Assembly: GCA_902769535.1 (NCBI GenBank)
Contig: CACXPH010000025.1
Location: forward strand, 1-39,247
DNA length: 39,247 bases
Direction of reading: 5' to 3'
Origin: an uncultured Bacteroidales bacterium
GTDB lineage: Bacteria > Bacteroidota > Bacteroidia > Bacteroidales > Paludibacteraceae
Position numbers and translations under genes: made by a program. The notes beneath the pieces are model-generated. The model did not search any database and was not told the origin of the DNA. It worked only from the letters and a program-made list of their open reading frames with translations. Position 1 is the first letter of the stretch. Each line of letters starts with the position of its first letter. Below are positions 2,419 to 35,930 of the stretch, piece by piece.

Positions 2419-4138
2419 AGTGAACGAGGATCTTTTGGGTGAACCACTGTCCGTTGTAGAAGGTCTTGATGAAATAGATACCGATAGGCAGTTGGTCGGT
2501 CTTGACTTCGCCCTCGATGACACCTAACAGCTTACCGCTGACGTCGAGCAGGTAGTGCACGCCTTCACCATGCGGGATGGTCGGATCGGCTTCCAGTTCC
2601 TGCGCATCGAACGGGTTCGGTATGAACTGCTCGCTGATATCTGAATACTGATCACTGACTTCTGACGGCTTACACGCCGGCATCGCCGAAAACTCCACGA
2701 TGGTGCGCACCAGCATGTCGTTGAGGTGCTCTACCTGCAGACTGTCGGTGGTCGGTTGAATATGCGTATGACCGATTCCCGAGTCGTCCGTCAGGAAGAA
2801 CGACGTACCGTTGGTCAGCAAGGCGATCGAACGCATCAACATCTCGCCGGCTTTGTCCAGACCGCTGCACACGACGGGCACGATACGCACTCCCATCGCC
2901 GCGGCGTTACGAACCTGCTCCTGCATCAAGGCAACCGTCGCGGAGTCTTGGTGGCAAGGCGCATCCAAGATAAGGAACGCGATACGTGCACGTGCGTCTT
3001 CGTTCCAACCGGCACTGTTCAGCGCCGCCATCAACGCCTCCGGAACGGCCTCCGGGAAGTCACCTCCGCCACTAGCCACCTGCTTGTCAATAAATCGCTG
3101 CGTCGTGCTTATGTCGTCCGTCAGACGCGAGAGACGCGTGATATACTCATCGCCATGATCGCGATAGACGACCGCTCCAGTGCGGATTTTCGACCCACCT
3201 GTTGCCGCGGACGCACGGGCTATCACGTCGTTCATCTCCGCCTGCAGGTAGCGCAACTCATCGCCCATCGATCCCGTCGCGTCGAACACGAATAGCACGT
3301 CCACACCGTCCGGCACCTCGCAGGGCTCATCTATGACCATCGTCTGCTGCGGAACAACAACCTCTAATCGCTCACCACTAATCGCTAATCGCCAAAGCTC
3401 TGCTTTGCCGGTGTTGTCCGTGACGGCCTGAAAGACGGTGTTGCCGTGCTTGTCTGTGAGGTTCACGGGGTAGTTGACGATCGGATAGCCATCCCTATTC
3501 ATGACCTGCACCGTATAGCGTTCCTGCGGGGTCATGCGCCATGGTTCAAACCAACGCGCATTCTCTGTGTCCTCAACGATCTTCTGCCACTGGCGCCATT
3601 TGGTGAAGTCATTCACCTCGCCTGCCGTCAACTGACCGGCAGAGACCGCATGGTTAGAGGCACTCGGAGCGGCCGCCTCATAGACAGCACCGTCATAGGC
3701 GGCTTCATGAACAACCGCTTCTTCCGCCATCATTACAACCGCACGATCCGCACGCACTGCCCCTTTGGAACTGCCGTACGAATAATAGATCTCCTTCTCT
3801 TTCCGCGCCTTTTGCGACTTGGGAACGAGCCGCACAATGCAGGTACGCAGGTCTGCTACCGTCACTTTCTGTGCTTCGTACCCCTCGCAAGAGACAGCGA
3901 GCGATTTGGCATTACCCACCTGCTCAGGCGTCAGCACCACCCGACCGTCGTATGAGGTCTTAAACGTTACCTTACCTACCCTTACCTCCGCGCCGTTAAG
4001 CAGAGCCTGCGTTGTGTCCATGACAATAACGGTGAGCGGTGAGAGGTTAGAGGTGAGAGTTTGCTTCTTAACACACGCACTCGCTGCACCCACGCACAGC
4101 ACCGCCATAACAATAAATAGCATCTTTTTCATACGCAT
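2417..4138 (-). CDS. VWA-domain lipoprotein with C-terminal T9SS-like tail
   Basis: A 573-residue exported protein. The N-terminal hydrophobic segment ends at a possible lipobox (ASAC, Cys22). Residues about 36-105 look like a carboxypeptidase-regulatory-like beta domain, and about 208-250 like an Ig-like domain. A von Willebrand A domain follows at about 278-475, with the MIDAS start DATGS at 286-290 and a GGGDFPE segment. The last 60 residues (YLLDVSGKLLGVI to TQKILVH) resemble a type IX secretion sorting domain. Three heptad tracts lie inside the gene, encoding residues about 27-36, 249-259 and 491-502, all between domains. Start could be 4138 or 4132. No canonical promoter is seen upstream; instead there is the phased repeat at 4191-4329. 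The substrate or ligand is unknown. Confidence 0.85.
   Translation of the reverse strand: MRMKKMLFIVMAVLCVGAASACVKKQTLTSNLSPLTVIVMDTTQALLNGAEVRVGKVTFKTSYDGRVVLTPEQVGNAKSLAVSCEGYEAQKVTVADLRTCIVRLVPKSQKARKEKEIYYSYGSSKGAVRADRAVVMMAEEAVVHEAAYDGAVYEAAAPSASNHAVSAGQLTAGEVNDFTKWRQWQKIVEDTENARWFEPWRMTPQERYTVQVMNRDGYPIVNYPVNLTDKHGNTVFQAVTDNTGKAELWRLAISGERLEVVVPQQTMVIDEPCEVPDGVDVLFVFDATGSMGDELRYLQAEMNDVIARASAATGGSKIRTGAVVYRDHGDEYITRLSRLTDDISTTQRFIDKQVASGGGDFPEAVPEALMAALNSAGWNEDARARIAFLILDAPCHQDSATVALMQEQVRNAAAMGVRIVPVVCSGLDKAGEMLMRSIALLTNGTSFFLTDDSGIGHTHIQPTTDSLQVEHLNDMLVRTIVEFSAMPACKPSEVSDQYSDISEQFIPNPFDAQELEADPTIPHGEGVHYLLDVSGKLLGVIEGEVKTDQLPIGIYFIKTFYNGQWFTQKILVH
2634..2668. repeat. Degenerate heptad repeat (5 x 7 bp, CTGANNN)
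   Basis: Five consecutive 7-base units begin with CTGA at 2634, 2641, 2648, 2655 and 2662. The tract encodes the linker between the VWA domain and the sorting-like tail of the lipoprotein (S-D/S-E rich). Read on the minus strand the unit is TCAGNNN, the same word family as the tract next to the gcvP stop. Confidence 0.85.
3362..3389. repeat. Degenerate heptad repeat (4 x 7 bp, CGCTAAT family)
   Basis: Four consecutive units at 3362, 3369, 3376 and 3383 alternate between CNCTAAT and CGCTCAC. The tract lies inside the VWA lipoprotein gene just before the VWA domain, where it encodes ISGERLE-like sequence. The same words occur at 4031, 30444, 33780 and 34976. Confidence 0.85.
4031..4058. repeat. 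Degenerate heptad repeat (4 x 7 bp, GGTGAGM family)
   Basis: Four units at 4031, 4038, 4045 and 4052 have the form GGTGAGC, GGTGAGA or GGTTAGA. They are the reverse complement of the CGCTCAC/CTCTAAC words. The tract encodes the short segment following the lipobox of the VWA lipoprotein. Confidence 0.85.
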
Positions 4139-4190
4139 ACTGATTTGATCCTACCCTCTTCCTACAAACTCTATGCCAAAGCCTCCCTTT

Positions 4191-4329
4191 CCGATTAATT
4201 CCGAAAAAGTCAGATAAAATCCGATCTATTCCGATCAACATCCTACCTATCACCCACCAATTACCTACCAATCACCTATGCGTCCCCAAGGATCACCCAA
4301 GGATCACCCAAGGATCGCCCAAGGATGGA
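4191..4329. repeat. 10-11 bp phased degenerate tandem repeat
   Basis: Thirteen consecutive units can be laid out: four of 10 bp from 4191 (CCGATNNATT-like), then nine of 11 bp from 4231. The last four are nearly identical (CCAAGGATCAC). The unit drifts gradually from CCGAT to CCTACCNATCA to CCAAGGATCAC. The period matches the DNA helical turn. The tract fills most of the gene-free stretch between the VWA gene (minus) and the small lipoprotein gene (plus). Nothing else is seen in 4139-4400. Confidence 0.88.
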
Positions 4330-4406
4330 TGCCGATTTTTGACAAAAACATGCTTTATATGTATATATACATAGTATATATACAGTTTTTGTGCATAATT
4401 TTATGC

Positions 4407-4437: not shown

Positions 4438-4472
4438 CAGCGGAATTACAAACCTACTTAAATTAGATTGTT

Positions 4473-4898: not shown

Positions 4899-4931
4899 TC
4901 GCATAAAAATGCAAAAAAGAATGGCATATGC

Positions 4932-4980: not shown

Positions 4981-7248
4981 ATGCAGAAAAGTGCGTTTAC
5001 ACCGGAAGAGGATTTGATGATCCAGCGCGAGTTTGAAGCGTTGTTGGACGACTATGCGCATACTCCGCACCGTCAGAAAGTGGAGCTCATCACGCATGCG
5101 TTTAATTTCGCGTACAAGGCGCATTACGGTGTACGTCGCCTGAGTGGCGAACCGTATATTATGCACCCCCTTGCTGTCGCGCGCATATGCGTGCAACAGA
5201 TCGGTTTGGGTAGCACGAGTATCTGTTCGGCGTTGCTGCATGACGTGGTGGAAGACACGGACTACACGGTGGAGGACATCCAGGGTCTGTTCGGCGAGAA
5301 GATCGCGCAGATAGTGAGCGGTCTGACGAAGATCAGCGGTGGTGTGTTCGGAGACCAGGCGAGCGAGCAGGCGGAGAACTTCCGCAAGCTGCTGCTGACT
5401 ATCAGCGAGGACATCCGCGTGGTGCTCATCAAGATAGCCGACCGGCTTCATAACATGCGCACCTTAGGTTCGCAGCCCAAAGAGAAGCAGTACAAGATAG
5501 CAGGAGAGACACAGTATATCTACGCGCCGTTGGCGCACCGTTTGGGCTTGTTCCCCATCAAGACGGAGCTGGAGGATCTGAGTTTCAAGTACGAGCACCC
5601 GGAGACCTGGCAGGAGATACACGACAAGCTCGAGGCCATCAAGGCCGGTAAGTTGGAGAGCTTCGAAGTATTCTGCAAGCCTATCCGTGAGCGGCTGGAG
5701 AGTATGGGTTATACGTACACGCTCAAGGCGCGTATCAAGACCGCATACTCCATCTGGAAGAAGATGATGCAGCAGCAGTGCTCGTTCGAGGACGTGTATG
5801 ACATCATGGCGGTGCGTATCATCTTCACGCCGAACGAGTCGATGAGCGAGAAAGACCAGTGTTGGATGATCTACTCGGCTATCACGGAGATCTACCGTCC
5901 GCACCCGGAACGTATCCGGGACTGGATATCCACGCCGAAAGCCAATGGCTACGAGGCGCTGCACGTGACGGTGATGGGTAAGAACGGCGAGTGGATAGAG
6001 GTGCAGATCCGTACCGACCGTATGCACGAGATAGCCGACCACGGTTATGCGGCACACTGGAAATACAAGACGGGGGAGTCGGACGACAGCGAGCTCGACA
6101 AGTGGCTGCAGGAGATCAAGGACATCCTCGCGCACCCGGACAAGGACGCGATGGAGTTCCTGGGCACGTTCAAGCTCAACCTGTTCGCGCAGGAGGTGTT
6201 CGTGTTCACGCCGAAAGGGGAAGTGAAGACCATGCCGATGGGTGCCACCGCGTTGGACTTCGCATTCCTACTCCACTCGGAGATCGGCGAGCATTGTATA
6301 GGCGCCAAGGTGAACCATGCGCTCGTGCCGCTCCATTACCAGTTGAAAGGCGGCGACCAGATAGAGATCCTGACGTCTAACAGTCAGCACCCGCAGAAAG
6401 AATGGCTCAAGATCGTGACGACCGCCAAGGCGAAGAAAGGTCTGAACCAGTATTTCCTGCGCGAGGAACGCAAGTACATCAAGCACGGCGAGCGTCTGGT
6501 GAACGACGCGATCCAGATGGACAAGCACCTGGCGGAGAACCACGACATGGCTTTGGCACGCCTTTTGTCGTACTACGGTATGACGCAACCGACGGAACTG
6601 TATGCCGCGGTCGGGCAAGGCGAGGTACGGCTGGACACGATCCACGAGATCGTCTTCCCGAAGAAGCCGTGGTGGAAGAGGATGCCTTTTATGGGGAGCG
6701 GGAATGTTGAAATGAGCGTGGCAGAGCCGCTCAATGATACGCCTGCGGCGTCTAATGATACAAAAGAAGAAAAAACCAAGAAGAAAGAACCGAAGGCGAT
6801 TGTGCTGACGGATGAGAACCTGGGCAAGGAATATATACTGAGCGACTGTTGCCATCCGATACCCGGAGACGAAGTGCTGGGTTACAAAGACCCGAAGGGC
6901 ACGATGTATATCCACAAAGTGGATTGTCCGCAGGCGGCGCTGCTCAAGACCAGTTACGGTAAACGCCTCTACTCGGCGACCTGGAACACGCACCGTGTGC
7001 AGTCCTTCGTAGAGACGATCGAGCTGAAGGGTATAGACCGGTTCGGTGTGTTCATCCAAGTGCTGCAAGCCATCACGAAGGATTTTCACATCAACATGCG
7101 CGCCATCAATGTATCGAGCGACGACGGCATCTTCCAAGGCACGATGGAGATCTACGTGTATGACCGCACTGAGTTGGAAGCCCTGCTCAAAGCGATCCGC
7201 AAGATAGAAAACATCAAAGAAGTGAAACGAGTTACTGCTGAGCAGTAA
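4981..7248 (+). CDS. Bifunctional (p)ppGpp synthetase/hydrolase, RelA/SpoT family
   Basis: A 755-residue long RSH protein of the stringent response. The HD hydrolase domain is intact: MHP at 61-63 and HD at 87-88 in ALLHDVVEDT. The synthetase domain follows with YDIMAVRIIF and DWISTPKANGYEALHV, then WIEVQIRTDRMHEIADHGYAAH, a TGS domain starting VFVFTPKGEVK, a Cys/His-containing segment (SDCCHPIPGDEVLGY) and a C-terminal ACT domain. Both halves keep the key residues, so it should both make and degrade (p)ppGpp. The frame is open upstream to 4849, but the promoter at 4932-4962 makes 4981 the start. It heads a nine-gene plus-strand run. Confidence 0.95.
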   Translation: MQKSAFTPEEDLMIQREFEALLDDYAHTPHRQKVELITHAFNFAYKAHYGVRRLSGEPYIMHPLAVARICVQQIGLGSTSICSALLHDVVEDTDYTVEDIQGLFGEKIAQIVSGLTKISGGVFGDQASEQAENFRKLLLTISEDIRVVLIKIADRLHNMRTLGSQPKEKQYKIAGETQYIYAPLAHRLGLFPIKTELEDLSFKYEHPETWQEIHDKLEAIKAGKLESFEVFCKPIRERLESMGYTYTLKARIKTAYSIWKKMMQQQCSFEDVYDIMAVRIIFTPNESMSEKDQCWMIYSAITEIYRPHPERIRDWISTPKANGYEALHVTVMGKNGEWIEVQIRTDRMHEIADHGYAAHWKYKTGESDDSELDKWLQEIKDILAHPDKDAMEFLGTFKLNLFAQEVFVFTPKGEVKTMPMGATALDFAFLLHSEIGEHCIGAKVNHALVPLHYQLKGGDQIEILTSNSQHPQKEWLKIVTTAKAKKGLNQYFLREERKYIKHGERLVNDAIQMDKHLAENHDMALARLLSYYGMTQPTELYAAVGQGEVRLDTIHEIVFPKKPWWKRMPFMGSGNVEMSVAEPLNDTPAASNDTKEEKTKKKEPKAIVLTDENLGKEYILSDCCHPIPGDEVLGYKDPKGTMYIHKVDCPQAALLKTSYGKRLYSATWNTHRVQSFVETIELKGIDRFGVFIQVLQAITKDFHINMRAINVSSDDGIFQGTMEIYVYDRTELEALLKAIRKIENIKEVKRVTAEQ

Positions 7249-7279
7249 TGTGTAATGTGTAATGTTTAATGTTTAAAGG
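7245..7279. repeat. Heptad repeat across the relA stop codon (5 x 7 bp, GTAATGT)
   Basis: Three perfect GTAATGT units (7245, 7252, 7259) are followed by TTAATGT (7266) and TTAAAGG (7273). The relA stop TAA (7246-7248) is part of the first unit, and the tract fills most of the 40-base spacer before the next gene. Confidence 0.88.
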
Positions 7280-12394: not shown

Positions 12395-15300
12395 ATGAGA
12401 AACAAACTCTTTTCAATGATGTGTGTGCTTTGTATCGGGTTAACAGCCTTTGCACAGACATCACTCAAGGGTCGCGTGATCGACGACGCTACGCAAACTC
12501 CTATCGTAGGAGCGCGTATCACACTCGCGAACCAGAACATCTCTACTACGACCAACGCATCCGGTGACTTCCTGTTGCTCTATTTGGACGCGATGGACGA
12601 GGAGGTGTTAATCGAGGCAGAAGGCTACATGGCTACGCTCGAACTGATTAACCTCAAGGAAAATCAAGCGAACGAATTAGTCACGGTTCAACTGCAACAA
12701 GATGTGGTGACGCAGACGCAAGACGAGATCCTGCTGAACCTGACGGAGGAAGAGATGACCGACGATGAAGGCCGTTCACAGGCTCAAGCTTCGTCTTCAT
12801 CCGCTTCGACCGACGTGTTCAACTCGACGACCTCTTTCGCTTGGTCCACCGCTCGTTACCGCAACCGTGGTTACAATTCGACCGCTGAGACCTATTACAT
12901 CGAGGGTCTGCCGTTCAACTCGGCGGAGCGCGGTCAGTTCAACTACTCCGCCATGGGTGGTCTGAACGACGCGAGTCGCTACAAAGAGGTGCTCAACCCG
13001 ATGGAAGCCAGCGATTTCTCCTTCGGTGGTCTCGGTCAATCGACCAACTACATGATGGGTGCCAGTCGTTATGCACAGGGTTGGAAAGTCGGTGCTGCCG
13101 GTACGAACCGAAACTACAAGGCTCGTCTGAACGCTACCTACTCCAGCGGTGTGATGTCCAACGGATGGGCTATCACGGCACAGATCGCTTACCGCTTCTC
13201 GCCGTATGTTGACAACAAGGGTATCATCGGCGAAGGTATCAAGTATTACTCGCTGGGTTATTTCTTCACCGCAGAGCGCGTATGGGATAACGCACGCCTC
13301 AAACTGATCACCTTCGGTGCTCCAACAGAGCGCGGCCAGAACGCAGCGGTAACGCAAGAAGTGTATGACCTGACGGGAAGTAACAACTACAACCCCTACT
13401 GGGGCTACCAGAACGGTAAGGTTCGTAACAGCCGCATCGTGAAGTCCTATGACCCGACGGTGATTGCAGCATACGAGTGGAAGATCGACGAGCAGCAGAA
13501 ACTCAAAGCTGCCGTAGGTTACCACTACTCGATGTACTCGAACTCGGCGCTGAACTACTTCAACGCGCCGGATCCGCGTCCGGATTACTACCGCAACCTG
13601 CCTTCCGCTATGTGGGACGGTCAGATAGCTAACCCGTGGTACGAGACCTCTGCTGACCAGCTCTATCGCGCTGACGGTACGCCGTACGGCTACGGTCTGT
13701 TCATCGGCGAAGACATGATGGGTAACTACCTGGGCTCTGCTTGGATAGCAGACGACGGTAACCTCGTGGGTCCGAGTGTGAACAAAGAGCAGTACAACAC
13801 GCTGGTTAACCTCTGGAAGACGCGCGACAACAAGACTACCCAGATCGACTGGAATAATATCTATGCCGCTAACTACGCGAACAACGCCAATGATCCGACC
13901 GCTTCGGCGCGTTACTTCATTGAGCGCCGTCATAATGACATCCAAGAGGCAACCGCTGCGATCAACTACCAGAACACGCAGTTTGAACACCTGAAGATGA
14001 CCGCCGGTCTGGAAGGTCGCTTCTCGCAAGGTATTCACTATAAGACGGTAGATGACCTGCTCGGTGGTAACCAGTGGATCGATATTGACGCCTTCGCGGA
14101 TCGTGATATCAAGGAATTGGCTTCTAACAGCGGTTTCACGCAGGAAGACATCAAGCTCATTCGTCAGAACGAGACCCGTGAGGGCTACGAACTCAACAAG
14201 AAAGACGGCGACCGCTTCGGCTACGATTACCGCATTAACATGGGAAACCTGAAGGCATGGTTCCAGAACGAGTGGACCTTCCACGAGATCGATCTGTACT
14301 ACGCACTGCAACTCAACTTCAACTCCATGCAACGTACGACCAACATGATCAACGGTCGTGCATGGTACCTGACCAAACTGGCAGTCGAGCAAGGCGACGC
14401 TGAGAACTACTGGAAATACTACGGAAAGAGCGCTTTTGAGCGCATTGACGCCGGTGATGCTACCATCCAGAACGTGGGTAATACCATCGTAGGTGATGCA
14501 CACTACTTCTTGGATCCGGCATTCAAACTCGGTTTGGTTTACAAGATCAACGGACGTAACCGCTTGAAACTGAACGCCCTTGCAGAGACGACGGCGCCCT
14601 ACGCACGCGATGCGTATATCTCGCAGCGTGTACACGACCGCGTAGTGGATAACATCTACACGCACGATAACGCTAAGAGCCTGGCTGATTTCTATGCATC
14701 CAGTGAGAAAGTGGCTTCGGCTGACCTGACGTATGAGTTCAATTACCCGATCGTTCGCGGTCGTGTAACGGGCTTCTTCACGCAGAGCTGGAACGGCACC
14801 GAGCTCAACGGTTACTATGACGACGAGGCACGTACGTTCGTTAACCAGGCGCTGACCGGCATCGACAAGCGTTACTTGGGTATTGAGGCAGCCTTGGCTG
14901 TTAAGCTCGGTACCTACTTCACCTTGACCGGCGCAGCGAGCGTAGGCGACTACCGCTATACGAGCGATGCTAACTCCGTTACTTCCGCTGAGAACGGTAT
15001 GCCTATGACGCAAGACCAGGGTACGATGGATCTCGTCTTCGAGACTCGTGATAAAGTGCTGTTAAAGGGTCTTAAACTGTCGAGCGGTCCGCAAGTGAAC
15101 GCCAGCTTGAAGCTCTCGTTCTTCCACTCGAAGATGTGGTTTGCTGACGTAACGGTTAACTACCATGACTGGAACTACCTGTCGGTAGCGCCGAGTCGTC
15201 GTATGCAAGGCCTCTACACCGGTCGTCGTACCGACGGAACCGCAGTGAACGGCTGGTTTGGAGATACCTATACTAACGCTATTGAGACGACAGACGGTCT

Positions 15301-17987: not shown

Positions 17988-18577
17988 GTTTTTGGGCAAC
18001 TTTTTTCCAAAAAAATGATATATAGTTTTTCCAACAATTTTCCAAGTATCGAACTCATAGAGATTTTCTGCGAATAAAATTGCACTATAGAATTTGTATT
18101 ATAATATTATAGTATCCATTGGCATATTTTTTGCAAGTTTTTAGTGAACGATTTGCGTTTATCGGTGTATGCAGTAGTGAGAGCGCACTCAGAAAACAGA
18201 ATATTAACCGATAAAATTTCAACCAAAATGGATAAAAAGTATTTGATTATTGCAGTAGCAGTATTAGCACTGGGCTGCATCGGGACTCTCCAAGCGTTTA
18301 CACATTTGGAGACGCAAGAACCCCAAGAAATCCGTGGTATTGTTGTGGATGAGTACGATGCCGCATGGTACGAACAACAGCAAACATTGTGGTTAAAGCA
18401 TGGGAACAGTGCTTCAGCGCGGCACGTTATGCCGATATGCTCCAAGAGCAGTATGGAATGACCGACCGCAAAAAAGTTGTACTTGACGAGATGGCGAAAC
18501 ATATCCCTAACTCGTTTACGTATAACCTCGCCATGTACCAAACAAAACGTGATATGTACGGCGAGGACGCAAGTCCG

Positions 18578-18727
18578 TGGGCAGAAAAGGCATTGCAACA
18601 GATTCCGGAAAACATCGGTCGTCAAGATGCATCCATGCTTATCGCTTATCTGTGGGCAGAAAAGGCATTGCAACAGATTCCGGAAAACATCGGTCGTCAA
18701 GATGCATCCATGCTTATCGCTTATCTG
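18578..18727. repeat. Perfect 75-bp tandem duplication
   Basis: 18578-18652 and 18653-18727 are identical and encode the same 25 residues (from WAEKALQQIP to LIAYL) twice. The length keeps the frame. The identity at every base indicates a recent event or an assembly artefact. Confidence 0.95.
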
Positions 18728-20449: not shown

Positions 20450-20486
20450 AAAACGGGTAAATGAATTTCAATTTTACCCGTTTTTT
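20450..20486 (+). terminator. Strong terminator of the sigma/anti-sigma operon
   Basis: A perfect 12-bp stem AAAACGGGTAAA/TTTACCCGTTTT (20450-20461 with 20473-20484), 11-base loop, followed by T to 20486. It lies about 95 bases after the anti-sigma stop. Confidence 0.82.
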
Positions 20487-20496
20487 ACCCGATTCT
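20473..20496. repeat. Right copy of 24-bp island direct repeat
   Basis: TTTACCCGTTTTTTAC followed by CCGATTCT. It is the partner of 17913-17936 (two mismatches). A further TTACCCGATT follows immediately at 20496-20505, so this end has extra tandem units. Confidence 0.75.
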
Positions 20497-20514
20497 TACC
20501 CGATTTTATAAAAT

Positions 20515-21670: not shown

Positions 21671-21698
21671 TCAGTGTTCAGTAGTCAGTATTTAGAAT
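21671..21698. repeat. Heptad repeat at the gcvP stop (4 x 7 bp, TCAGTNN)
   Basis: Units at 21671, 21678 and 21685 begin TCAGT; the fourth, TTAGAAT at 21692, contains the complement of the gcvP stop codon. The tract fills the spacer between gcvP and the YitT gene. It is the same word family as the tract at 2634 on the other strand. Confidence 0.8.
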
Positions 21699-24569: not shown

Positions 24570-24607
24570 ATAATTTGTATACTTTTTTTTAGAGTCTAAT
24601 AGCATTT

Positions 24608-24651
24608 ACATACGTCTTACATAGGACATACATAGGACAAACATACGATTA
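24608..24651. repeat. 11-bp phased degenerate repeat
   Basis: Units starting ACATA at 24608, 24619, 24630 and 24641 have exact 11-base spacing; the two central ones read ACATAGGACAW. It lies between the divergent gcvP and Crp/Fnr promoters. No other feature is seen in 24570-24690. Confidence 0.75.
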
Positions 24652-25465: not shown

Positions 25466-26432
25466 AGTCCATCATGTTACCCATGTTCGAGGAGAGTTGA
25501 ACCATGCGGTCGTATTCTTCCGGACTGAGGTCGTAGAAATAATAGTTGCGCGGGTCAATCGGCCGATCCTGGTAATGCACCTCGTAATGCAAGTGCGGGC
25601 CGGTGGACTTACCGGTGTTTCCGACCTTAGCAATCACATCGCCTCTTTTCACTTTCTGCCCTACTCGCACAAGCCGTTTGGAGCAGTGTGCATAACGCGT
25701 CTTGTAACCAAAACCATGGTCAATCTCCACCGTTTCACCGTAACCTTGCCGCCAAGCCGAATAGACAACCGTACCGTTTCCGGTAGCGAAAATATCCGTT
25801 CCGACGGGCGCCGTGAAGTCCATTCCTTCGTGGAAACGACGGATGTGATAAACAGGGTCTATACGCCAACCGTAACCGGACGCCATGCGTTTGAGGTTCT
25901 TGTTGAGCACAGGCTGGATAGCCGGTATATTCTCCATACGCACCTCTTGGTTCTTGGCCAGTTCTACTATCTCGTCGTACGAGCGGGCCTGTACGTACAG
26001 TTCTTTTTCCAATATATCCACCTTACGCTGCAGGTCAGCGGCCAGTTGGGTGTTGGTCATGCGGGCCAAAGAGTCGTAGTACGAGATCTGCTGGGTCGCA
26101 CCGAGACGAGCGGCCTGCGGAATCGGTTCGGCACCTAACATCGCGCGGTACAGGTTATCGTCACGCTGTGAGAGGTCGGACATAACGATCTGCATCTGAT
26201 CCACCTGCGCCTCGAGCACCTCCATCTGCGCCGTCAAGTTACGGTTGTACTGCATAAGCGAGGCTTCCCGCGGCGATGGGAAGAAATAGAGGAAGGTATA
26301 AAAGAAGATCACACCTAAGCATATACCTCCGATGATATAACCTCCTGAGCGACGAAGCCAATAACGAAGGCCGTGCTCAATGCGCTCGAGTTGCAGCGTT
26401 TCCGGATTAATACGATATTTCTTATTTGCCAT
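25464..26432 (-). CDS. M23 family metallopeptidase (membrane-anchored, coiled coil)
   Basis: 322 residues: a cytoplasmic N-terminus, one membrane helix (about 31-51), a coiled-coil region (about 60-160) and a C-terminal LytM/M23 domain. Zinc ligands are visible: His201 and Asp205 in HEGMDF, and His282 in GPHLHYEV with His280 as the partner. All catalytic residues seem present, so it should be an active peptidoglycan endopeptidase in the periplasm, used in cell wall growth or division. It is the last gene of the long minus-strand run. Its ATG lies in a heptad tract three bases after the YgiQ stop. Confidence 0.92.
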   Translation of the reverse strand: MANKKYRINPETLQLERIEHGLRYWLRRSGGYIIGGICLGVIFFYTFLYFFPSPREASLMQYNRNLTAQMEVLEAQVDQMQIVMSDLSQRDDNLYRAMLGAEPIPQAARLGATQQISYYDSLARMTNTQLAADLQRKVDILEKELYVQARSYDEIVELAKNQEVRMENIPAIQPVLNKNLKRMASGYGWRIDPVYHIRRFHEGMDFTAPVGTDIFATGNGTVVYSAWRQGYGETVEIDHGFGYKTRYAHCSKRLVRVGQKVKRGDVIAKVGNTGKSTGPHLHYEVHYQDRPIDPRNYYFYDLSPEEYDRMVQLSSNMGNMMD

Positions 26433-26464
26433 TTGTTATTTGTGATTTTTGATTTTCGATTTAT
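26423..26464. repeat. Heptad repeat through the YgiQ stop and M23 start (6 x 7 bp)
   Basis: Six units start at 26423, 26430, 26437, 26444, 26451 and 26458, of the form KATTTKY. On the minus strand the unit is near AAATCAC. The M23 start (26432-26430) and the YgiQ stop (26438-26436) are both built from repeat units. Confidence 0.88.
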
Positions 26465-28178
26465 TTTCGGGCTTGTACCAGAAGAAGTACTGGTTCTGTT
26501 GTTTTTTCTCTTCGGGTGTACGCGCGACGTATATAGGTTCGCGCGTGTAAGGGTTAATGCCGGTGTAGAACATAGTTGTGGACAGCGTCATAGGTGTCGG
26601 CGTGAAGTCCTGAACCTGTTCCGGCCGGTAATGCATTTTCTTCGTTTCCTCGGCCAGATGCTGCATGTCCTTTCGCGTGCAGCCCGGGTGCGAGGAGATG
26701 AAGTACGGGATGAGTTGTTGGTTGAGTCCCGCCTCCTTGTTGATACGCAGGAAGAGCTCGCGGAACTCGAGGTAGTTCTTCCAGTTCGGTTTGCGCATGA
26801 TGTGCAGTACGTTATCCGAACTGTGCTCGGGTGCTACCTTAAGTCGTCCTGACACGTGACGTGTGATCAGTTGCCGCGCATAGGCCTCGCTCATGAGGTC
26901 GTAACGGATACCCGAACCGACAAAGGCATGCTTGACGTACGGCAACTTATCGACCGTGCGGTAGAGGTCGAGCAGCGGTTCGAAATCCCGGTTGAGGTTC
27001 TTGCAGATAGCCGGTTGCAGACAGGAAGGCCGTGCACATTTCTCGCATAGGCTCATGTCCTTGCCGTGCATACCGTACATGTTCGCCGACGGTCCACCGA
27101 GGTCGGAGATAATACCGTGCCAGTCCGGTAATTGGCTTAGTTTATCTATCTGCCGGAGGATGGACTGCTTGGATCGCGATACGATCTGCTTGCCTTGATG
27201 GGCACTGATCGTGCAGAACGAGCACCCGCCGAAACAACCACGGTGCATGCACACCGACCACTTGATCATCTCATAAGCCGGTATATGTTTGCCCTTGTAT
27301 TTGGGATGCGGCGCGTACTGATACGGCAGGTCGTAGATAGCGTCCAGTTGCTCCGTCGTGATCGGCAGATAGGACGGATTAACCACCACCCACTTGTTGC
27401 CAACCGGCTGTACAAGCGTCGTCTGGTGGATCTTATTGGATTCTACCTCAATCAGCCGGAAGTTCTCCGCGTGCACGCGCTTGTCACGCACTGCCTGTTC
27501 GTGCGAAGCAAGCATGATGGCGCCTTCCGGGATCTCCGATTTGTCGGAAGTCAGGAAGGCCGTTTGAGGCACATCGTGTAACGAAATCCTTTCACCTTTC
27601 ACCTTTAACCTTTCAACTTTATTAGCTATCTCCGTCATCGCTTGTTCACCCATACCATAGACGAGCAAGTCTGCACCGCTGTCCACAAGGATGGACGGCA
27701 TGAGCTTGTCCTGCCAGTAGTCATAGTGCGTCAAACGGCGCATGGACGCCTCGATACCACCGATAATAACCGGCACGTCCGGATAGAGCGACTTGAGGAT
27801 CTTGCAGTAGGTGATCGTGCAGTAATCCGGTCGTGCACCTGCTCGTCCGTCGGGTGTATAGGCATCGTCTGAACGTTTACGCTTAGCAGCCGTATAGTGG
27901 TTGACCATACTATCCATCGAACCGGCAGACACCGCAAAATACAGACGAGGACGACCGAACTTCTTAAAGTCCCGGTAATCCCCGTGCCAGTCCGGTTGAG
28001 GCACGATAGCTACTTTGTAGCCAGCCGCCTCAAGTACACGACCTAACACCGCCGCGCCAAAAGAAGGATGGTCGATATACGCATCACCGGTGAAGAAGAT
28101 GATATCCACTTCATCCCAACCGCGTAACTCCATCTCTTTGCGAGTTGTCGGCAAATATTTCTTCAGGTCATACTCCAC
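26436..28178 (-). CDS. YgiQ-type radical SAM protein
   Basis: 580 residues of the YgiQ/UPF0313 family, whose substrate is unknown. The N-terminal cobalamin-binding-like part reads WDEVDIIFFTGDAYIDHPSFG. The radical SAM cluster motif CxxxCxxC is Cys315, Cys319 and Cys322 in HRGCFGGCSFC. The later FVGSGIRYDL and LKVAPEHSSDNVL segments are family hallmarks. The start is GTG at 28178, overlapping the dnaX TAG by one base; the nearby ATG is out of frame. Two heptad tracts touch it: one inside (residues about 187-197) and one forming its C-terminus. Confidence 0.92.
   Translation of the reverse strand: MEYDLKKYLPTTRKEMELRGWDEVDIIFFTGDAYIDHPSFGAAVLGRVLEAAGYKVAIVPQPDWHGDYRDFKKFGRPRLYFAVSAGSMDSMVNHYTAAKRKRSDDAYTPDGRAGARPDYCTITYCKILKSLYPDVPVIIGGIEASMRRLTHYDYWQDKLMPSILVDSGADLLVYGMGEQAMTEIANKVERLKVKGERISLHDVPQTAFLTSDKSEIPEGAIMLASHEQAVRDKRVHAENFRLIEVESNKIHQTTLVQPVGNKWVVVNPSYLPITTEQLDAIYDLPYQYAPHPKYKGKHIPAYEMIKWSVCMHRGCFGGCSFCTISAHQGKQIVSRSKQSILRQIDKLSQLPDWHGIISDLGGPSANMYGMHGKDMSLCEKCARPSCLQPAICKNLNRDFEPLLDLYRTVDKLPYVKHAFVGSGIRYDLMSEAYARQLITRHVSGRLKVAPEHSSDNVLHIMRKPNWKNYLEFRELFLRINKEAGLNQQLIPYFISSHPGCTRKDMQHLAEETKKMHYRPEQVQDFTPTPMTLSTTMFYTGINPYTREPIYVARTPEEKKQQNQYFFWYKPENKSKIKNHK
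27590..27617. repeat. Heptad repeat inside YgiQ gene (4 x 7 bp, TTTCACC)
   Basis: Units at 27590, 27597, 27604 and 27611 (TTTCACC twice, then TTTAACC and TTTCAAC). They encode the charged stretch RLKVKGER, between two conserved parts of the protein. Confidence 0.87.
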
Positions 28179-29893
28179 TAATCGATCTGCAAATCCAATG
28201 TTTCTTTGAGTTCCACCAAAGCCGGGTTCTGTTCGGCCATGAGGGCGTATTTCTCTTCGGCGGTAAAAGCCATCTGTTCCTGGTTGAACTCCTCCTGCAC
28301 GATGTTGATCTGCAGCAGGTTGTTATGCAAGGCTCGGTGTAACTGCTGTAGCAACACCGGCATGGCTTTTTTCATCTCCTGCAACTGCCATGGGTTCGGC
28401 ATCATGATCTGCGCCGTGCTCTCGTCCGTGAGGTGCGGGATATAACTTTCGATCAACTGTTTGAGACGCAATTCCTCCTTATGGGTAGCAGCCAGACCAA
28501 CCCACGCGTCTCTGAGTTGGTCAGCCGTAAAAGGGCGGTTAGACTCCTCCTGAGGAGGAGTATTTGTGATTGGTGATTGTTGATTTGTAATTTCCGGCTT
28601 CTCTTCTTTCTTGAGGCCAAGACCTAAACCGATCTTCGGCATCTTAGGGATAGAAGGGGCAGGCTGCGGAGCCTGGGCAGCAGGAGCCGCAGGAGCTGGA
28701 TTGCCCTTCTCGGCGGAAGCCGCTCCTCCCGTTTGTCGGGAGGACGCTCCGGGCTGACTAGACGGTCTAGGCTGACTAAGCTGACTAGGTACAGTTTGCA
28801 GGACTCCTAATTGGCATAGTTTGACCAGAGCCAGTTCAACCGTCAGGCGTTTGTTACGCGCCGTGCGGTAGTTAATATCGCAAGTATTGAGCAAGTCGAG
28901 TGCCTGGAAGAGCCAAACCGGAGAGCAGTGCTGCGCCTGCAGGGCATAACGCTGACGGATGGCCTCCGAGGTCTCGAGCAGTTGGAGCGTCTGAGGATCT
29001 TTGCTAACCAGCACATCACGCAGGTGCTGGGCAAAACCCGTCACGAAATGACCGGCATCAAAACCGTGGTTCAGTACATCGTTGAAGAGCAGCAGCGCCT
29101 TCGTCACATCGTGCTGCAGCGCCGCGTCCACCAAGTTGAAATAGTAATCGGCATTGAGCACGTTCAGCACAGCGATCGTCTGCTCATACGTGATGTTATT
29201 GCCGCAGAACGCCACCAACTGATCGAAGATAGATAGTGCGTCACGCATACCACCGTCGGCTTTCTGCGCTACGACGTTCAGTGCCTCTTCGCTCACCGTG
29301 ATACCTTCGTTCGCTGCCACTTTCTGCAAGTACGCGATGGTGTCGGGTACGGTAATACGGTTGAAATCATACACCTGGCAACGGCTCAAGATCGTCGGTA
29401 TCACCTTGTGCTTCTCCGTCGTTGCAAGAATGAAGATGGCATATGAAGGCGGTTCTTCGAGGGTCTTCAGCAAGGCGTTAAACGCACCGGCCGAGAGCAT
29501 ATGTACCTCATCGATGATATACACGGAGTACTTACCGATCTGCGGCGGGATACGCACTTGGTCGATGAGCGAACGGATGTCCTCGACGGAGTTATTCGAC
29601 GCCGCATCCAGTTCGTGAATATTAAACGACCGCTGCTCGTTGAAGGCCTTACAACTCTCGCACTCATTGCAGGCATCGTAACCGTTTTGCGGGTTAAGAC
29701 AGTTAATGGTCTTTGCGAAGATACGTGCGCAGGTGGTCTTACCTACCCCTCGCGGTCCGCAGAACAAATACGCATGCGCCAGACGGTTCTGACGAATGGC
29801 GTTCTGCAAGGTCTGCGTGAGCGCTTGCTGACCCACTACCGACTCAAAAGTCTGCGGTCTGTACTTTCGCGCTGAAACAATGTAATCACTCAT
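28178..29893 (-). CDS. dnaX: DNA polymerase III subunit gamma/tau
   Basis: 571 residues. Clamp-loader ATPase: Walker A GPRGVGKT at 46-53, zinc cysteines 65, 75, 78 and 81, Walker B IIDEVHML and the SRC sensor (ILSRCQVY). A proline/alanine/glutamine-rich linker follows at about 375-450, then a C-terminal helical domain as in tau. No A-rich slippery site for a shorter gamma product was found. The linker DNA has a heptad tract, a nonamer tract and two strong inverted repeats (about 28543-28561 and 28729-28749). Its start overlaps the phosphopantetheinyl transferase end by 8 bases. Confidence 0.95.
   Translation of the reverse strand: MSDYIVSARKYRPQTFESVVGQQALTQTLQNAIRQNRLAHAYLFCGPRGVGKTTCARIFAKTINCLNPQNGYDACNECESCKAFNEQRSFNIHELDAASNNSVEDIRSLIDQVRIPPQIGKYSVYIIDEVHMLSAGAFNALLKTLEEPPSYAIFILATTEKHKVIPTILSRCQVYDFNRITVPDTIAYLQKVAANEGITVSEEALNVVAQKADGGMRDALSIFDQLVAFCGNNITYEQTIAVLNVLNADYYFNLVDAALQHDVTKALLLFNDVLNHGFDAGHFVTGFAQHLRDVLVSKDPQTLQLLETSEAIRQRYALQAQHCSPVWLFQALDLLNTCDINYRTARNKRLTVELALVKLCQLGVLQTVPSQLSQPRPSSQPGASSRQTGGAASAEKGNPAPAAPAAQAPQPAPSIPKMPKIGLGLGLKKEEKPEITNQQSPITNTPPQEESNRPFTADQLRDAWVGLAATHKEELRLKQLIESYIPHLTDESTAQIMMPNPWQLQEMKKAMPVLLQQLHRALHNNLLQINIVQEEFNQEQMAFTAEEKYALMAEQNPALVELKETLDLQID
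28559..28593. repeat. Heptad repeat in the dnaX linker (5 x 7 bp, GTGATTG)
   Basis: Units at 28559, 28566, 28573, 28580 and 28587 with core GTGATTG. They encode ITNQQSPITN in the disordered linker of tau. On the minus strand the word is CAATCAC, the same family as 26423 and 35245. Confidence 0.87.
28752..28787. repeat. Nonamer repeat in the dnaX linker (4 x 9 bp)
   Basis: Units at 28752, 28761, 28770 and 28779, core GGCTGACTA, the second diverged. It encodes a Ser/Gln/Pro-rich piece of the linker. The 9-base unit keeps the frame. Confidence 0.75.
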
Positions 29894-30455
29894 ATGCTAT
29901 ACTGTATATATAATTTGCTTTTTCAAAAGTCTCCAATTTCCAATCTCCAATTTCCAATATCTTTTGGACTTGTTCAAAAGATTGTATCCCCGTTCCCTGC
30001 ATCTTGACCACCGCCTCTTTCTGTGTCCAGAGACGGATAAACGCGCGGTCTCTCTCTAACGCACTCATTCCATCATTCACTAACTCTCTCTCCGCTTCAT
30101 TCATCGTCCTTTTGATCAGTTCCTCGTCCGCATGGCGAATCGCTTCTATATCGATACCTATCGGCTTCTCGTCTACCGCGACCGCGATACCCTGCTTGCA
30201 ATGACTGATAGAGAAGTGCGGTCCTCCTTCGATAAACGGCTTGCCGTGCTCGTTATATTTCCAATCCCGTAACCCGTAACCCATAACCTCTAATCCCTCT
30301 TTCAACATCAACCAACTCTTAAGGCAGCAGAACTGCCCGAGCGTGTGCTTGTACCGCAGTGCCTGTTCGCGCCGCTGCGCGGACACCAGCGGAAGCATCC
30401 GTTGCACTTCCTGCTCCGTGCACTGCTCCATCCTATCGAAGATCTCAACTCTCAT
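29886..30455 (-). CDS. 4'-phosphopantetheinyl transferase superfamily protein
   Basis: 189 residues of the Sfp-like superfamily. GIDIE at 100-104 holds the magnesium-binding aspartate and glutamate, and WTQKEAVVK at 143-151 the catalytic Glu/Lys motif; PHFSISHC near 79-86 is also conserved. It would transfer phosphopantetheine from CoA to a carrier protein. No polyketide or peptide synthase is in view, so the target may be acyl carrier protein or unknown. Heptad tracts lie at its start, in its first third and near its end. It overlaps dnaX by 8 bases. Confidence 0.88.
   Translation of the reverse strand: MRVEIFDRMEQCTEQEVQRMLPLVSAQRREQALRYKHTLGQFCCLKSWLMLKEGLEVMGYGLRDWKYNEHGKPFIEGGPHFSISHCKQGIAVAVDEKPIGIDIEAIRHADEELIKRTMNEAERELVNDGMSALERDRAFIRLWTQKEAVVKMQGTGIQSFEQVQKILEIGDWKLETFEKANYIYSIAYE
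29930..29957. repeat. Heptad repeat near the end of the transferase gene (4 x 7 bp, TYTCCAA)
   Basis: Units at 29930, 29937, 29944 and 29951 alternate TCTCCAA and TTTCCAA. They encode LEIGDWKLE near the C-terminus. Confidence 0.87.
30265..30299. repeat. Heptad repeat within the transferase gene (5 x 7 bp, ACCCRTA)
   Basis: Units at 30265, 30272, 30279, 30286 and 30293, core ACCCGTA/ACCCATA. They encode residues about 52-63 (LEVMGYGLRDW). The same word family recurs at 34569. Confidence 0.85.
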
Positions 30456-30511
30456 CTCTAACCTCTAACCGCTCACCGCTCACCGCTCACCGCTAACCTC
30501 TAACCTTTACT
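30444..30511. repeat. Long heptad repeat between RND pump and transferase genes (about 9 x 7 bp)
   Basis: In 7-base register from 30444, units read CTCAACT, CTCATCT, CTAACCT, CTAACCG, CTCACCG (three times), CTAACCT (twice), then a decayed unit. The tract fills the whole 51-base spacer, includes the transferase ATG (30455-30453) and reaches the RND stop codon (30509-30507). It is the longest and most regular heptad tract in the window. Confidence 0.92.
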
Positions 30512-33578: not shown

Positions 33579-34621
33579 GTGACATTACAGTCGTTGTACA
33601 GTTTCTGGTATCCTTCGATGATGAGCGTGTCGCCCGCCTGAAGACCGGACAGGACACGTACGCCGTCAGCCTGATAGCCGTCCACCGTGATATCCCGCCG
33701 CACGGCTCTGCCCTGCTCTACTACCCACACGGTGTGTCCCTGCGGTTTGAGTAACACACATTTCGCCGGGATAACAATTCGCTCACCGCTAATCGATAAT
33801 CGTTCACCCCTAATTGTTACCTTCCCCACCATGCCGGGCACCAGTATGTCTGCGCCGCCTTGAATACGGGCCACCACTTCGCAAGTATGCGTCACTACAT
33901 TCGAGGTCACACTCTTCTCCGTGATGACGATCGGCAGTACGGTATCCACCGCGGGACACTCGACCGATCCTTTCGCCTTGATCCACTCGCCGTTCGCCTC
34001 CGCCTCCGGTACGGCGAACCGCACGCTGTAGGCCGTCAGGTCGAATATCGAGCAAAGTCGTGTTCCGGGAATGATAGTCTGGCCTTTCTCTACGTTCAGG
34101 CCGTCCAGCACGCCGTCACAGGGCGCAGTGAGGGTGCACTCGTTCAATTGTTGCTTGGCAGCCTCGTACATAGAACGGGCTTGCGCCAACTTGCTCTCAA
34201 TCTCCACCATCTTCTGATCACTCACTACCCCCTTGTCATGCACTTGACGCACGCGGTCATAACCGTCCTGTGCATGACGCAGAGCGGCTTCAGCAGTAGC
34301 CAAGGCATTACGGGCCTGCGTGTCGTCGATAGCAAGGATAGCCTGTCCGGCTTTGAGACGCTGACCGTTCTTGGCGTGGATAGCCACCACCCGACCTGCA
34401 CTCTGCAGGCTGAGCGGCGTCTGTTTAGCCGGTTCTACCGTACCGAGATAGCGAGAAACGGCTGTGCCGTCCTGCGAGGTGACGACCATCGTCTTCACCG
34501 GCAGGGGTGCCTGCTCGCCTTTGCGCTGCTCATAATGGGAACAACTCACCATAGCCAACATAGTGGCTCCCATAACCCATAACCTATAACCCATAACCAT
34601 TATAAACTTTTTTCCATTCAA
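33569..34621 (-). CDS. RND efflux periplasmic adaptor lipoprotein
   Basis: 350 residues of the membrane-fusion-protein family. The signal ends at lipobox AMVSC (Cys27). Then come a barrel-sandwich half (GRVVAIHAKNGQRLKAGQAILAIDD), a helical hairpin (about 90-145), the second lipoyl half (GVLDGLNVEKGQTIIPGTRL) and a beta barrel. It links the inner-membrane pump to the outer membrane. The start at 34621 lies inside the MATE gene (38-base overlap), and the signal peptide codons are partly heptad repeat. A second tract encodes RLSISGERIVI near residue 275. Confidence 0.92.
   Translation of the reverse strand: MNGKKFIMVMGYRLWVMGATMLAMVSCSHYEQRKGEQAPLPVKTMVVTSQDGTAVSRYLGTVEPAKQTPLSLQSAGRVVAIHAKNGQRLKAGQAILAIDDTQARNALATAEAALRHAQDGYDRVRQVHDKGVVSDQKMVEIESKLAQARSMYEAAKQQLNECTLTAPCDGVLDGLNVEKGQTIIPGTRLCSIFDLTAYSVRFAVPEAEANGEWIKAKGSVECPAVDTVLPIVITEKSVTSNVVTHTCEVVARIQGGADILVPGMVGKVTIRGERLSISGERIVIPAKCVLLKPQGHTVWVVEQGRAVRRDITVDGYQADGVRVLSGLQAGDTLIIEGYQKLYNDCNVTWH
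33780..33821. repeat. Heptad repeat in the adaptor gene (6 x 7 bp, CGCTCAC/CGCTAAT)
   Basis: Units at 33780, 33787, 33794, 33801, 33808 and 33815, of the CGNTCAC or CGNTAAT type. They encode the ISGER-like segment seen also in the VWA lipoprotein, in unrelated domain context. Confidence 0.87.
34569..34603. repeat. Heptad repeat across MATE stop and adaptor signal peptide (5 x 7 bp, CCCATAA)
   Basis: Units at 34569, 34576, 34583, 34590 and 34597, core CCCATAA. The MATE stop (34586-34584) is in the third unit. The same bases in another frame encode adaptor residues VMGYRLWVMG. Confidence 0.87.
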
Positions 34622-35930
34622 TTGTTAAATATACTGCCCGCGCAGCCAAATGCGCGAAATAACCTATGTATAGCGCCTGCGCACCGAGCCAACGGTACGT
34701 AAGCAAATAACCTGCCACAAAAGCACAGGCAGCCCAGATCATCGAGTTGCGTATCTGTTTGCCGGCTGTAGCACCCACAAAAACGCCGTCCCACATAAAC
34801 GCCAACGTGCTGATAATCGGCATAGCAATAAGCCAACCCATATAGCTCATTGACGCGTCAATCACCTCCGCGTCACTGGTCATCAATGCAATACATCCTT
34901 TTCCCCAGACAGCGTAGATCACCGTGAATAGCAGCCCTACGCCTATAGCCCAGTTAAACAGCGCCCGGACAATACCGCTCACCCCTAACCGCTCACCCCT
35001 AACCGTTTGGCCGTAGGCCTTCCCCACCAGCGCTTCGCCCGCATAGGCAAAGCCGTCCACGAAGAAGGAGAAGAACATAAACAGTTTCATCAATATACTG
35101 CTCACCGCCAGTTCGGTATCGCCATACCTGCCTGCCAAGGACGTGAAACCCACGTACACCACCATGAAGCAGAGCGACCGCACAAACAGGTTTCCGTTCA
35201 GCGCCATCATACGCCGCAGTTCCGACCAGCGCATCGCAGTTTTTAAATCTGAAATCAAAAATTTCAAATCTAAAATATAGCGGAATACAAGGATTAATAC
35301 GGCGAGTATTAAGCCGCTGTATTGCGCTATCAGCGTGCCCCACGCGACACCGACGACACCCAGCGGTGTGTGAACCGCCAGGTAGTAACTGGCACCCATG
35401 TTCACCACGTTCACGAGGATATCCACCGCCATCGGACTCTTGGTGTCCTGCATACCGATGAACCAGCCTTTGAAGGCCATCAACATGAGCGTTGCCGGCG
35501 CAGCCCAGATACGCACAAAGAAATAATCTCGTGCTACACTTGCCACCTCTGCCGAACACGGCACTACCGCCAACACAGCCGTCACGAAAAACCACTGGAT
35601 GACCCAGATACCGAGTGCTGCTATCATCGCGATAGTCAGGCTCTGCGTCAGGATCTTCCGGCACTCATCGTTCACTCGTTCATTCGTTAACTCGTTCACT
35701 CGGCCGAAGGCCTGTGCCGTCAGACCACTCGTCCCGATACGCAGAAAACCGAAGTTCCAATATAGCAAATCAAAGAGCATTGTACCTATGGCGATGCCGC
35801 CGATAGCAGCGGCATCGCTTAGGTGTCCAACGATAGCGGTATCCACGATACCCACCAACGGAATCGTGATATTCGCTAAGATGCTTGGCAGCGCCAAGCG
35901 CAGAATATTAGAGTTGTGCTCCGAGAACAT
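34584..35930 (-). CDS. MATE family efflux transporter
   Basis: 448 residues from the ATG at 35930 (MFSEHNSNILRLALP); an earlier in-frame start at 35948 would overlap the upstream gene more. About twelve hydrophobic helices in two halves. The first helix (LPSILANITIPLVGIVDTAIVG) is typical of DinF/NorM-type multidrug and toxic compound extruders. Three short-repeat tracts encode its polar loops (NELTNERVNDE, LDLKFLISDLK and VRGERLGVSG), and a fourth forms its C-terminus. It overlaps the pectinesterase-like gene by 23 bases and the adaptor gene by 38. Confidence 0.92.
   Translation of the reverse strand: MFSEHNSNILRLALPSILANITIPLVGIVDTAIVGHLSDAAAIGGIAIGTMLFDLLYWNFGFLRIGTSGLTAQAFGRVNELTNERVNDECRKILTQSLTIAMIAALGIWVIQWFFVTAVLAVVPCSAEVASVARDYFFVRIWAAPATLMLMAFKGWFIGMQDTKSPMAVDILVNVVNMGASYYLAVHTPLGVVGVAWGTLIAQYSGLILAVLILVFRYILDLKFLISDLKTAMRWSELRRMMALNGNLFVRSLCFMVVYVGFTSLAGRYGDTELAVSSILMKLFMFFSFFVDGFAYAGEALVGKAYGQTVRGERLGVSGIVRALFNWAIGVGLLFTVIYAVWGKGCIALMTSDAEVIDASMSYMGWLIAMPIISTLAFMWDGVFVGATAGKQIRNSMIWAACAFVAGYLLTYRWLGAQALYIGYFAHLAARAVYLTIEWKKVYNGYGL
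34976..35003. repeat. Heptad repeat in MATE gene (4 x 7 bp, CGCTCAC/CCCTAAC)
   Basis: Units at 34976, 34983, 34990 and 34997 alternate CGCTCAC and CCCTAAC. They encode VRGERLGVSG in a loop between membrane helices. Confidence 0.88.
35245..35279. repeat. Heptad repeat in MATE gene (5 x 7 bp, AAATCNN)
   Basis: Units at 35245, 35252, 35259, 35266 and 35273 all start with AAAT. They encode ILDLKFLISDLK in the central loop. Confidence 0.85.
35671..35702. repeat. Octamer repeat in MATE gene (4 x 8 bp, TTCACTCG)
   Basis: Units at 35671, 35679, 35687 and 35695, core TTCACTCG. They encode RVNELTNERVNDE between the second and third helices. Here the unit is 8 bp, not 7. Confidence 0.87.

Follow-up and report, generated by a model that had tools for sequence, protein, structure and literature searches.

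Dispersed heptanucleotide arrays with fast-changing words in the genes and spacers of Paludibacteraceae-type Bacteroidales

The bacterial preference for 7-bp tandem units is a long-standing question, and a 39,247-nucleotide stretch of a Bacteroidales metagenome-assembled genome (MAG) belongs to a genus in which it can be tested directly. This stretch, which we call the window, is contig 25 of a MAG of 1,887,069 bases in 39 contigs (84.85% complete). An earlier reading of the sequence (the original prediction) named fifteen places in it where degenerate heptads stand in tandem, both between genes and within them. Are these arrays real, are they still being made and remade, and what kind of process might write them? 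To identify arrays we used a lag-7 self-match (match +1, mismatch -1.5), and we refer to an array as strong if its score is 12 or more.

A 7-bp periodicity is seen at all 15 named places, and nine of these are strong arrays (4031, 7245, 26423, 27590, 28559, 29930, 30265, 30444 and 34569). The tract named at 34976 is a 14-bp array of alternating heptads, and five others (2634, 3362, 21671, 33780 and 35245) are weak, and are individually unproven because a 36-bp placement in codon-permuted sequence reaches a score of 6 with probability 0.0098 and a score of 8 with probability 0.0008. The word families described for the tracts are likewise real. Shuffling had been proposed as a check, and shuffled sequence proved far poorer than the real sequence: compared with nine arrays observed, the mean number was 0.0 for dinucleotide shuffles (n = 20), 0.00 for codon permutations (n = 100; maximum 0) and 0.06 for synonymous-codon shuffles (n = 100; maximum 1). 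Among the other lags, 2-6, 9, 12 and 13 gave no arrays in the window, 8 and 10 gave one each, and 11 gave four; the eight found at lag 14 are mostly identical to the lag-7 arrays. As had been claimed, arrays fill spacers and form stop and start codons: four genes have their stop codon within an array (relA, ygiQ, RND and MATE), and two have their start codon there (phosphopantetheinyl transferase and M23). The lag-7 scan found no strong arrays between 7277 and 26415, so that dnaB and asnS, as stated previously, and also the gene at 12395-15709 are free of them.

The excess at period 7 extends well beyond the window. Our sample of the same genome (G000, the host genome) consists of 20 stretches plus the window (439,247 bases), and contains 86 segments at lag 7, 16 at lag 11, 15 at lag 8, seven at lag 9, six at lag 10 and three each at lags 6 and 12. 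Period 7 is also the commonest in two other genomes, G061 and G062. The density in the host genome is 19.6 arrays per 100 kb, which extrapolates to about 370 per genome. The density could be inflated, because contigs with a match in an earlier search supplied 17 of the 20 stretches, but we see no sign of this: the three remaining stretches, 60 kb in all, contain 14 primary period-7 arrays. The near loci are similar, with at least one array in 23 of 24 and 22.0 per 100 kb. At 65-75% identity (eight loci) the density of period-7 arrays is 3.9 per 100 kb, and lag 11 is commoner (8.4); across Prevotellaceae, Bacteroidaceae, Barnesiella and other loci it is 4.8, with a patchy distribution (18 of 48 loci). 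Relatives of the window's ygiQ gene at 85-90% identity occur in 24 named MAGs (Paludibacteraceae or Bacteroidales), many of them from ruminants. The arrays are a trait of a group of rumen bacteria, Paludibacteraceae-type Bacteroidales.

At fixed sites the arrays turn over rapidly. A comparison of G061 (about 592 kb) and G062 (588 kb), with loci L021 and L022 included, gave 14 distinct alignable array sites, whose flanks are 90-97% identical. Only one of these is the same in both genomes, while four are changed at equal length and nine are changed in length, by 27, 12, 35, 9, 39, 3, 6, 6 and 27 bp (the 39 becomes 38 when measured from the other side). Changes in length are far more frequent than in random 33-bp windows (9/14 vs 24/560; p = 4e-9), in agreement with the prediction of an active process. 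The rarity of full identity is not unusual by itself, because just 145 of the 560 random windows are identical. The changes take several forms. One site is 35 bp longer in one genome of this pair than in the other, and a second site differs by 14 bp between L009 and L010. In L148 (position 1955), two adjoining units are altered together relative to L199, with length unchanged, and at L021 4331 about 27 bp are replaced in L022 by another word in another phase, again at equal length and between flanks that are about 95% identical. Two of the replaced G061/G062 loops belong to what we take to be PrmC-like and RluD-like proteins. In a further case, the place of a G061 heptad array (L166 3794) is taken in G062 by a hairpin-like unit of another kind, present twice (L156 3817-3883) in the same in-frame loop; this loop therefore tolerates other repeats too.

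More distant orthologues show the same turnover. Among 33 aligned ygiQ genes, the loop that carries the array is short and array-free in the near relatives L013, L019, L025 and L027, as well as in the outgroups L030, L034 and L036, and the remaining relatives have arrays of unrelated words. At the transferase site (29932-29961; 23 sequences), orthologues match the array in length, exactly or nearly so, whether they carry another word or no repeat, and those without the repeat retain a hydrophobic-x-T/S pattern. This array has therefore overwritten sequence or decayed in place rather than having been added, and the proposed refutation, that repeat-free orthologues would show the same residues, applies in part here. 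The longest array (30443-30509) is 68 bp longer than the orthologous site in L017, L114, L115 and L029. We then considered coding arrays with a repeat-free orthologue (176 comparisons, one count per array and difference; cases not independent). Length is equal in 28 of these; the difference is a multiple of 3 in 140 and a multiple of 7 in four, and so the clean insertions of 21, 28 or 42 bp that had been anticipated are mostly not found. Of 16 coding pairs that share a word and are unequal in length, five differ by 21 bp, whereas pairs with different words differ by a multiple of 7 in only 2 of 141 (p = 0.0001; pairs not independent). These values suggest two processes, namely gain and loss of units within a word, and replacement of one word by another.

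Placement of the arrays follows what genes can tolerate, as the original prediction had supposed. Based on a crude, longest-open-reading-frame (longest-ORF) gene map, 48 of the 96 host-genome arrays of period 7, 14 or 21 fall inside genes and eight are intergenic; the other 40 overlap a gene end (to within 30 bp). A larger set, drawn from all groups, covers 3.09 Mb. Called genes make up 2.845 Mb of it and contain 229 arrays, the 0.250 Mb outside them contains 84 in full, and a further 132 are at edges; with edges excluded, the density is about four times higher outside genes. Unequal-length comparisons with repeat-free orthologues are nearly always multiples of 3 within genes (140/148), as opposed to 55/145 at gene boundaries. 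The triplet T-M-A never forms a stop when in frame (0/35 vs 43/81 out of frame), but we dropped this as evidence, since genes were called as open frames and the argument is circular. The motif lies on the coding strand in 38 cases and on the template strand in 50, and an orientation linked to transcription was rejected on this basis. Array lengths in the host genome peak at 30-33 bp (44/107), and the peak is sharper in genes (29-35 bp, 105/229) than outside (27/84; p = 0.04). In a structural model of YgiQ (24 sequences; mean predicted local distance difference test score, pLDDT, 75.9), the array residues, 187-197 by coordinates, are predicted to form the end of a helix (178-194) and the loop that follows it; pLDDT averages 66 for residues 191-200, and 91 and 92 for the adjoining blocks. 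The flanks of 82 oriented arrays contain no strong motif (at most 0.14 bits per position vs 0.026 expected; target-site duplications were not searched), and a conserved insertion motif was accordingly rejected. The 3' flank is slightly G-poor.

The favoured words vary between genomes. When host-genome units are aligned by register and strand, they follow a grammar of T-[AC]-A every 7 bp, with G scarce elsewhere (information 3.99 vs 3.07 +/- 0.11 with permuted columns; 91 arrays), and 80 of 97 unit-to-unit changes at the middle position of the triplet are between A and C. The grammar of G061 and G062 is instead built on AAAGTCG (11/54 and 17/60 arrays, respectively). For 97 arrays at 24 near loci, near-identical units were found in 22 of 261 same-genome pairs, vs 6.5 +/- 2.6 with permuted labels (maximum 19 in 1000 permutations). 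A stricter cut gives 7 vs 1.7 (maximum 9), and the observed mean unit similarity within genomes was reached in 25 of 2000 permutations. We also searched for exact 18-mers and longer composites in 61 genomes of the genus, to which the order sample adds 148 other genomes and the phylum sample 295 others. The AAAGTCG 18-mer has 48 matches in G040, 48 in G021 and 43 in G006 (matches overlap within arrays), and none in 33 of the 61 genus genomes or in the 148 others of the order sample; its reversed control has no match in the 61. For an AAAGGTG 18-mer, G029 has 39 matches (again overlapping within arrays) and G014 has 25, while 37 of the 61 lack it; here the reversed control, which is itself a heptad word, matches in nine of the 61 genomes, up to 11 times. 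A composite 26-mer is found in 16 of the 61 (22 copies in G043), and in none of the 295 others of the phylum sample. Pairs of arrays that share at least 21 bp number 7.65 per 1000 within G061 and 11.93 within G062. Loci whose flanks are unrelated can also hold the same composite of 24-30 bp; in two composite pairs, however (one from G061, the other from G062), the flanks resemble each other and local duplication may be the reason.

Several observations on particular words can be added. The AAAGTCG matches in G040 are 40 forward and eight reverse, a skew for which we have no explanation, given that matches overlap and contig orientation is arbitrary. A 14-bp composite, AAATCAT + AAATTTG, is present at five loci on two host-genome contigs (L096 16886, L100 8526, L100 11051, L101 7094 and L102 17311). 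In a viral collection, contigs L216 and L230 (one uncultivated virus genome, UViG; GC content 0.68-0.69) and L212 (GC content 0.55) have several heptad arrays, with other words besides AAAGTCG. Because viral contigs of such differing composition carry heptad arrays, neither the phenomenon nor this word is confined to the genus. Carriage by phages was considered; AAAGTCG arrays occur in 24 viral-contig stretches, 21 of which bear just a single array.

What process might produce such arrays? The reading we prefer, to which we give somewhat less than an even chance, is that an ongoing mutational process generates them, by slippage or template switching on a register of 7 nt, together with templating between arrays in some genomes, and that selection filters the products. 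At short direct repeats, the strand that grows during replication or repair would slip, or change template, by about 7 nt, to give arrays of 7n plus a few bases. The same slippage would add or remove units, or copy a unit over its neighbour, such that words become homogenised or changed; arrays with similar words might template each other in some genomes, and a few words would thereby multiply. Selection would then purge arrays that break frames or strike fixed residues, so that the survivors would be those in spacers, gene ends and protein loops. The seed of an array may be a short sequence repeated directly at a distance of 7 bp, and three added units (21 bp) would preserve the frame in genes. 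This reading accounts for the 7-bp period, the addition and loss of units, their homogenisation, the amplification of words and the filtering by selection. Array lengths inside genes avoid 7n and 7n+1 (25/229), which fits arrays that finish on a partial unit and counts in its favour. So does a control: in 200 kb from plasmid A of Trichormus variabilis, period 7 is again the commonest, with eight arrays that are built alike and reach 33 bp.

Other points weigh against slippage or template switching. It leaves the choice of 7 unexplained, as well as the T-[AC]-A grammar and its A/C bias, which differ in relatives. Word replacement alters length by non-multiples of 7, unlike simple unit slippage, and at gene boundaries only 21 of 145 unequal cases are multiples of 7, which is near chance; growth by whole units everywhere was rejected for this reason. 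A gain of 21 bp relative to repeat-free coding orthologues occurs in just 3 of 176 comparisons, with no excess despite the length peak, and thus three-unit growth remains tentative. In the host genome, arrays that share at least 21 bp number 2.58 per 1000 internal pairs, 2.85 with G062 and 1.01 with G061. Because internal sharing is no higher than sharing with G062, copying within this genome is not demonstrated, and the spread of tracts that had been predicted is supported for some genomes (through word amplification and identical composites at unrelated flanks). No responsible enzyme was identified, and no association search for one was made. Loss of mismatch repair is not the cause, since MutS and MutL are both present (intact in the host genome; MutS above cut-off in 56 of the 61 genus genomes).

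Among the alternatives, the arrays might be a dispersed selfish cassette, in which a dedicated trans-acting enzyme (a recombinase, a transposase-like protein or a reverse transcriptase) inserts copies of arrays about 30 bp long at new sites, or overwrites such sites with them, with period and size kept while sequence drifts. The length peak in the host genome, the identical composites at unrelated flanks, the 22 copies of one 26-mer in G043 and the 48 matches of one word in each of G040 and G021 are all in keeping with such a cassette, but the flanks lack a strong motif and the length peak is weaker outside genes, and we consider it unlikely. A bolder version, to which we give still less credence, is selfish DNA defined by its rhythm and not by its sequence: machinery dedicated to copying in these Bacteroidales would place arrays of about 30 bp, periodic at 7 bp, wherever they are tolerated (by insertion or by overwriting, and also in the loops of conserved proteins), with each genome amplifying its own words.

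Word replacement might in large part be due to homologous recombination that imports diverged alleles, the arrays being passengers in exchanged loops. The diverged block extends 20-30 bp past the array at some G061/G062 sites (the RluD-like loop, L177 7557 and L187 335), making import a possible contributor, and lengths that differ by non-multiples of 7 between words also agree with it. At L165 16271, L166 6461 and L148 1955, however, the flanks are near-identical right up to the array, and import leaves the origin of arrays unexplained; as the source of much of the replacement, we regard it as distinctly improbable. A functional role, with arrays acting as binding sites or translation signals under selection, could draw on the conserved unit grammar of the host genome and on the large share of arrays that overlap a gene end. 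It is nevertheless very improbable, given that arrays show no strand preference relative to the gene, that half are inside genes, and that close relatives have different words at the same site. As for chance, base composition, low-complexity protein or assembly artefact, five of the fifteen named tracts are indeed weak, but the three shuffling nulls fail to generate strong arrays, which already refutes this explanation for them, and the same pattern recurs in MAGs from several separate projects; we give it almost no weight.

Some known repeats resemble these arrays. Rickettsia palindromic elements, which are longer palindromes of conserved sequence within protein-coding genes, are similar in being dispersed DNA tolerated in frame in genes for conserved proteins, and different in that here it is the period rather than the sequence that is conserved. 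Short tandemly repeated repetitive (STRR) heptanucleotides occur in heterocystous cyanobacteria, whereas the host here is a Bacteroidales MAG with Paludibacteraceae-type relatives. According to PMC4679880 and PMC4692102, which cite Mrazek 2007, heptanucleotides are in most prokaryotic genomes the most abundant category of long simple sequence repeats with 5-11 nt units, and slippage across a polymerase contact that spans 7 nt has been put forward as a reason; tandem repeats with units of 4 nt and more are reported to be normally or weakly over-represented (PMC4060949). Our arrays agree with this class in that 7-bp units are over-represented relative to shuffles and 7 is the commonest period, and depart from it in that non-triplet units are described there as mainly outside coding sequence, whereas half of the host-genome arrays are inside called genes. 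GGGNATC-type arrays are described in Xanthomonas and cyanobacteria and GGGGA(T/C)T arrays in Nostoc (PMC4692102), with Nostoc and Xanthomonas arrays over-represented in intergenic regions, whereas about half of ours are inside genes. The cyanobacterial arrays share with ours degenerate 7-bp units, many words, dispersal and lineage specificity; they differ in phylum and words, and in density (19.6 per 100 kb here vs 4.0 on the Trichormus plasmid). A search for plasmids with a Nostoc-type array found nothing.

TAACTGA direct repeats, as reported in PMC4679880, occur in Beggiatoaceae, Cyanobacteria and five Bacteroidetes, including Paludibacter propionicigenes, and are mostly located just upstream of start codons, with other heptamers in some spacers. 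They are thus heptamer direct repeats with Bacteroidetes among their hosts, but they are based on a single word near starts, as opposed to many words, in both orientations, inside genes and with fast turnover. TAACTGA is not dominant in the host genome, where the 30 commonest consensus words are others (the word itself was not searched genome-wide); one G061 array (L144 6290) holds two copies of its complement. The closest known kind is the heptanucleotide repeats of cyanobacteria, Xanthomonas and Beggiatoaceae, and what is new here is the frequent placement in conserved genes and the fast turnover of words. Within the accessible literature on heptamers in Bacteroidales or in coding sequence, we found no report of this pattern. 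A large genus with dense, fast-changing, lineage-specific arrays in conserved genes allows gain, loss and word change to be counted across dozens of genomes, and if the arrays keep rewriting protein loops, they would be a source of in-frame variation in core enzymes.

The individual tracts of the window are listed in Table 1.

Table 1. Heptad tracts of the window, with scores from the lag-7 scan unless stated otherwise (TRF, Tandem Repeats Finder).
Feature	Coordinates	Location	Score and remarks
Weak heptad tract (named at 2634)	2641-2666	In VWA-domain gene 2417-4138 (-)	6.5; gene by Pfam
Weak heptad tract (named at 3362)	3378-3395	In VWA-domain gene	8.5; TRF 3360-3392, periods 14 and 7
Heptad array CGGTGAG/AGGTTAG	4030-4059	Near VWA-domain gene start	15.5
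Heptad array GTAATGT/TTAATGT	7245-7276	Fills spacer; relA stop TAA 7246-7248 inside	22.5
Weak heptad tract	21671-21698	Between YitT-family gene and glycine dehydrogenase gene	8.5
Heptad array	26416-26462	Contains M23 start codon and ygiQ stop codon	20.0
Heptad array CCTTTCA	27588-27620	Inside YgiQ-type radical SAM gene	18.5
Heptad array	28562-28593	Inside dnaX	12.5
Heptad array TCCAATT	29932-29961	Near 3' end of phosphopantetheinyl transferase gene	15.5
Heptad array CCCGTAA	30266-30288	In phosphopantetheinyl transferase gene	13.5
Longest array, CGCTCAC/CTCTAAC words	30443-30509	Contains transferase start codon, spacer and RND stop codon	40.0
Weak heptad tract	33780-33802	In HlyD-family gene	8.5
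Heptad array CCCATAA	34569-34598	HlyD-family/MATE overlap; MATE stop TAG 34584-34586 inside	18.0
14-bp array, alternating heptads ACCGCTC/ACCCCTA	34974-35005	In MATE gene	9.0; lag-14 score 18; TRF period 14, 100% matches
Weak heptad tract	35245-35279	In MATE gene	8.0

Repeats of other periods are also present. Arrays of 10- and 11-bp period, with their own unit grammar, are found at 4189-4326, 20472-20507 and 24606-24648 of the window, and 12 of the 15 period-11 arrays of the host-genome sample are intergenic; such periods amount to one helical turn, a spacing that would be suitable for protein-binding sites. Period-8 arrays (35668-35702 of the window, plus octads elsewhere in the host genome) have a partly palindromic, T-N-A-C-G-T-N-A-like grammar that is distinct from that of the heptads (information 4.84 vs 2.97; 17 arrays). 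A universal unit for periods 7, 8 and 11, of the form "X plus CA/AA", fitted the cases in the window and was dropped, as octads and 11-mers have grammars of their own and relatives vary at other positions. Finally, the window contains a perfect 75-bp tandem duplication at 18577-18727 (TRF, 2.0 copies, 100% matches), whose unit length is a multiple of 3.

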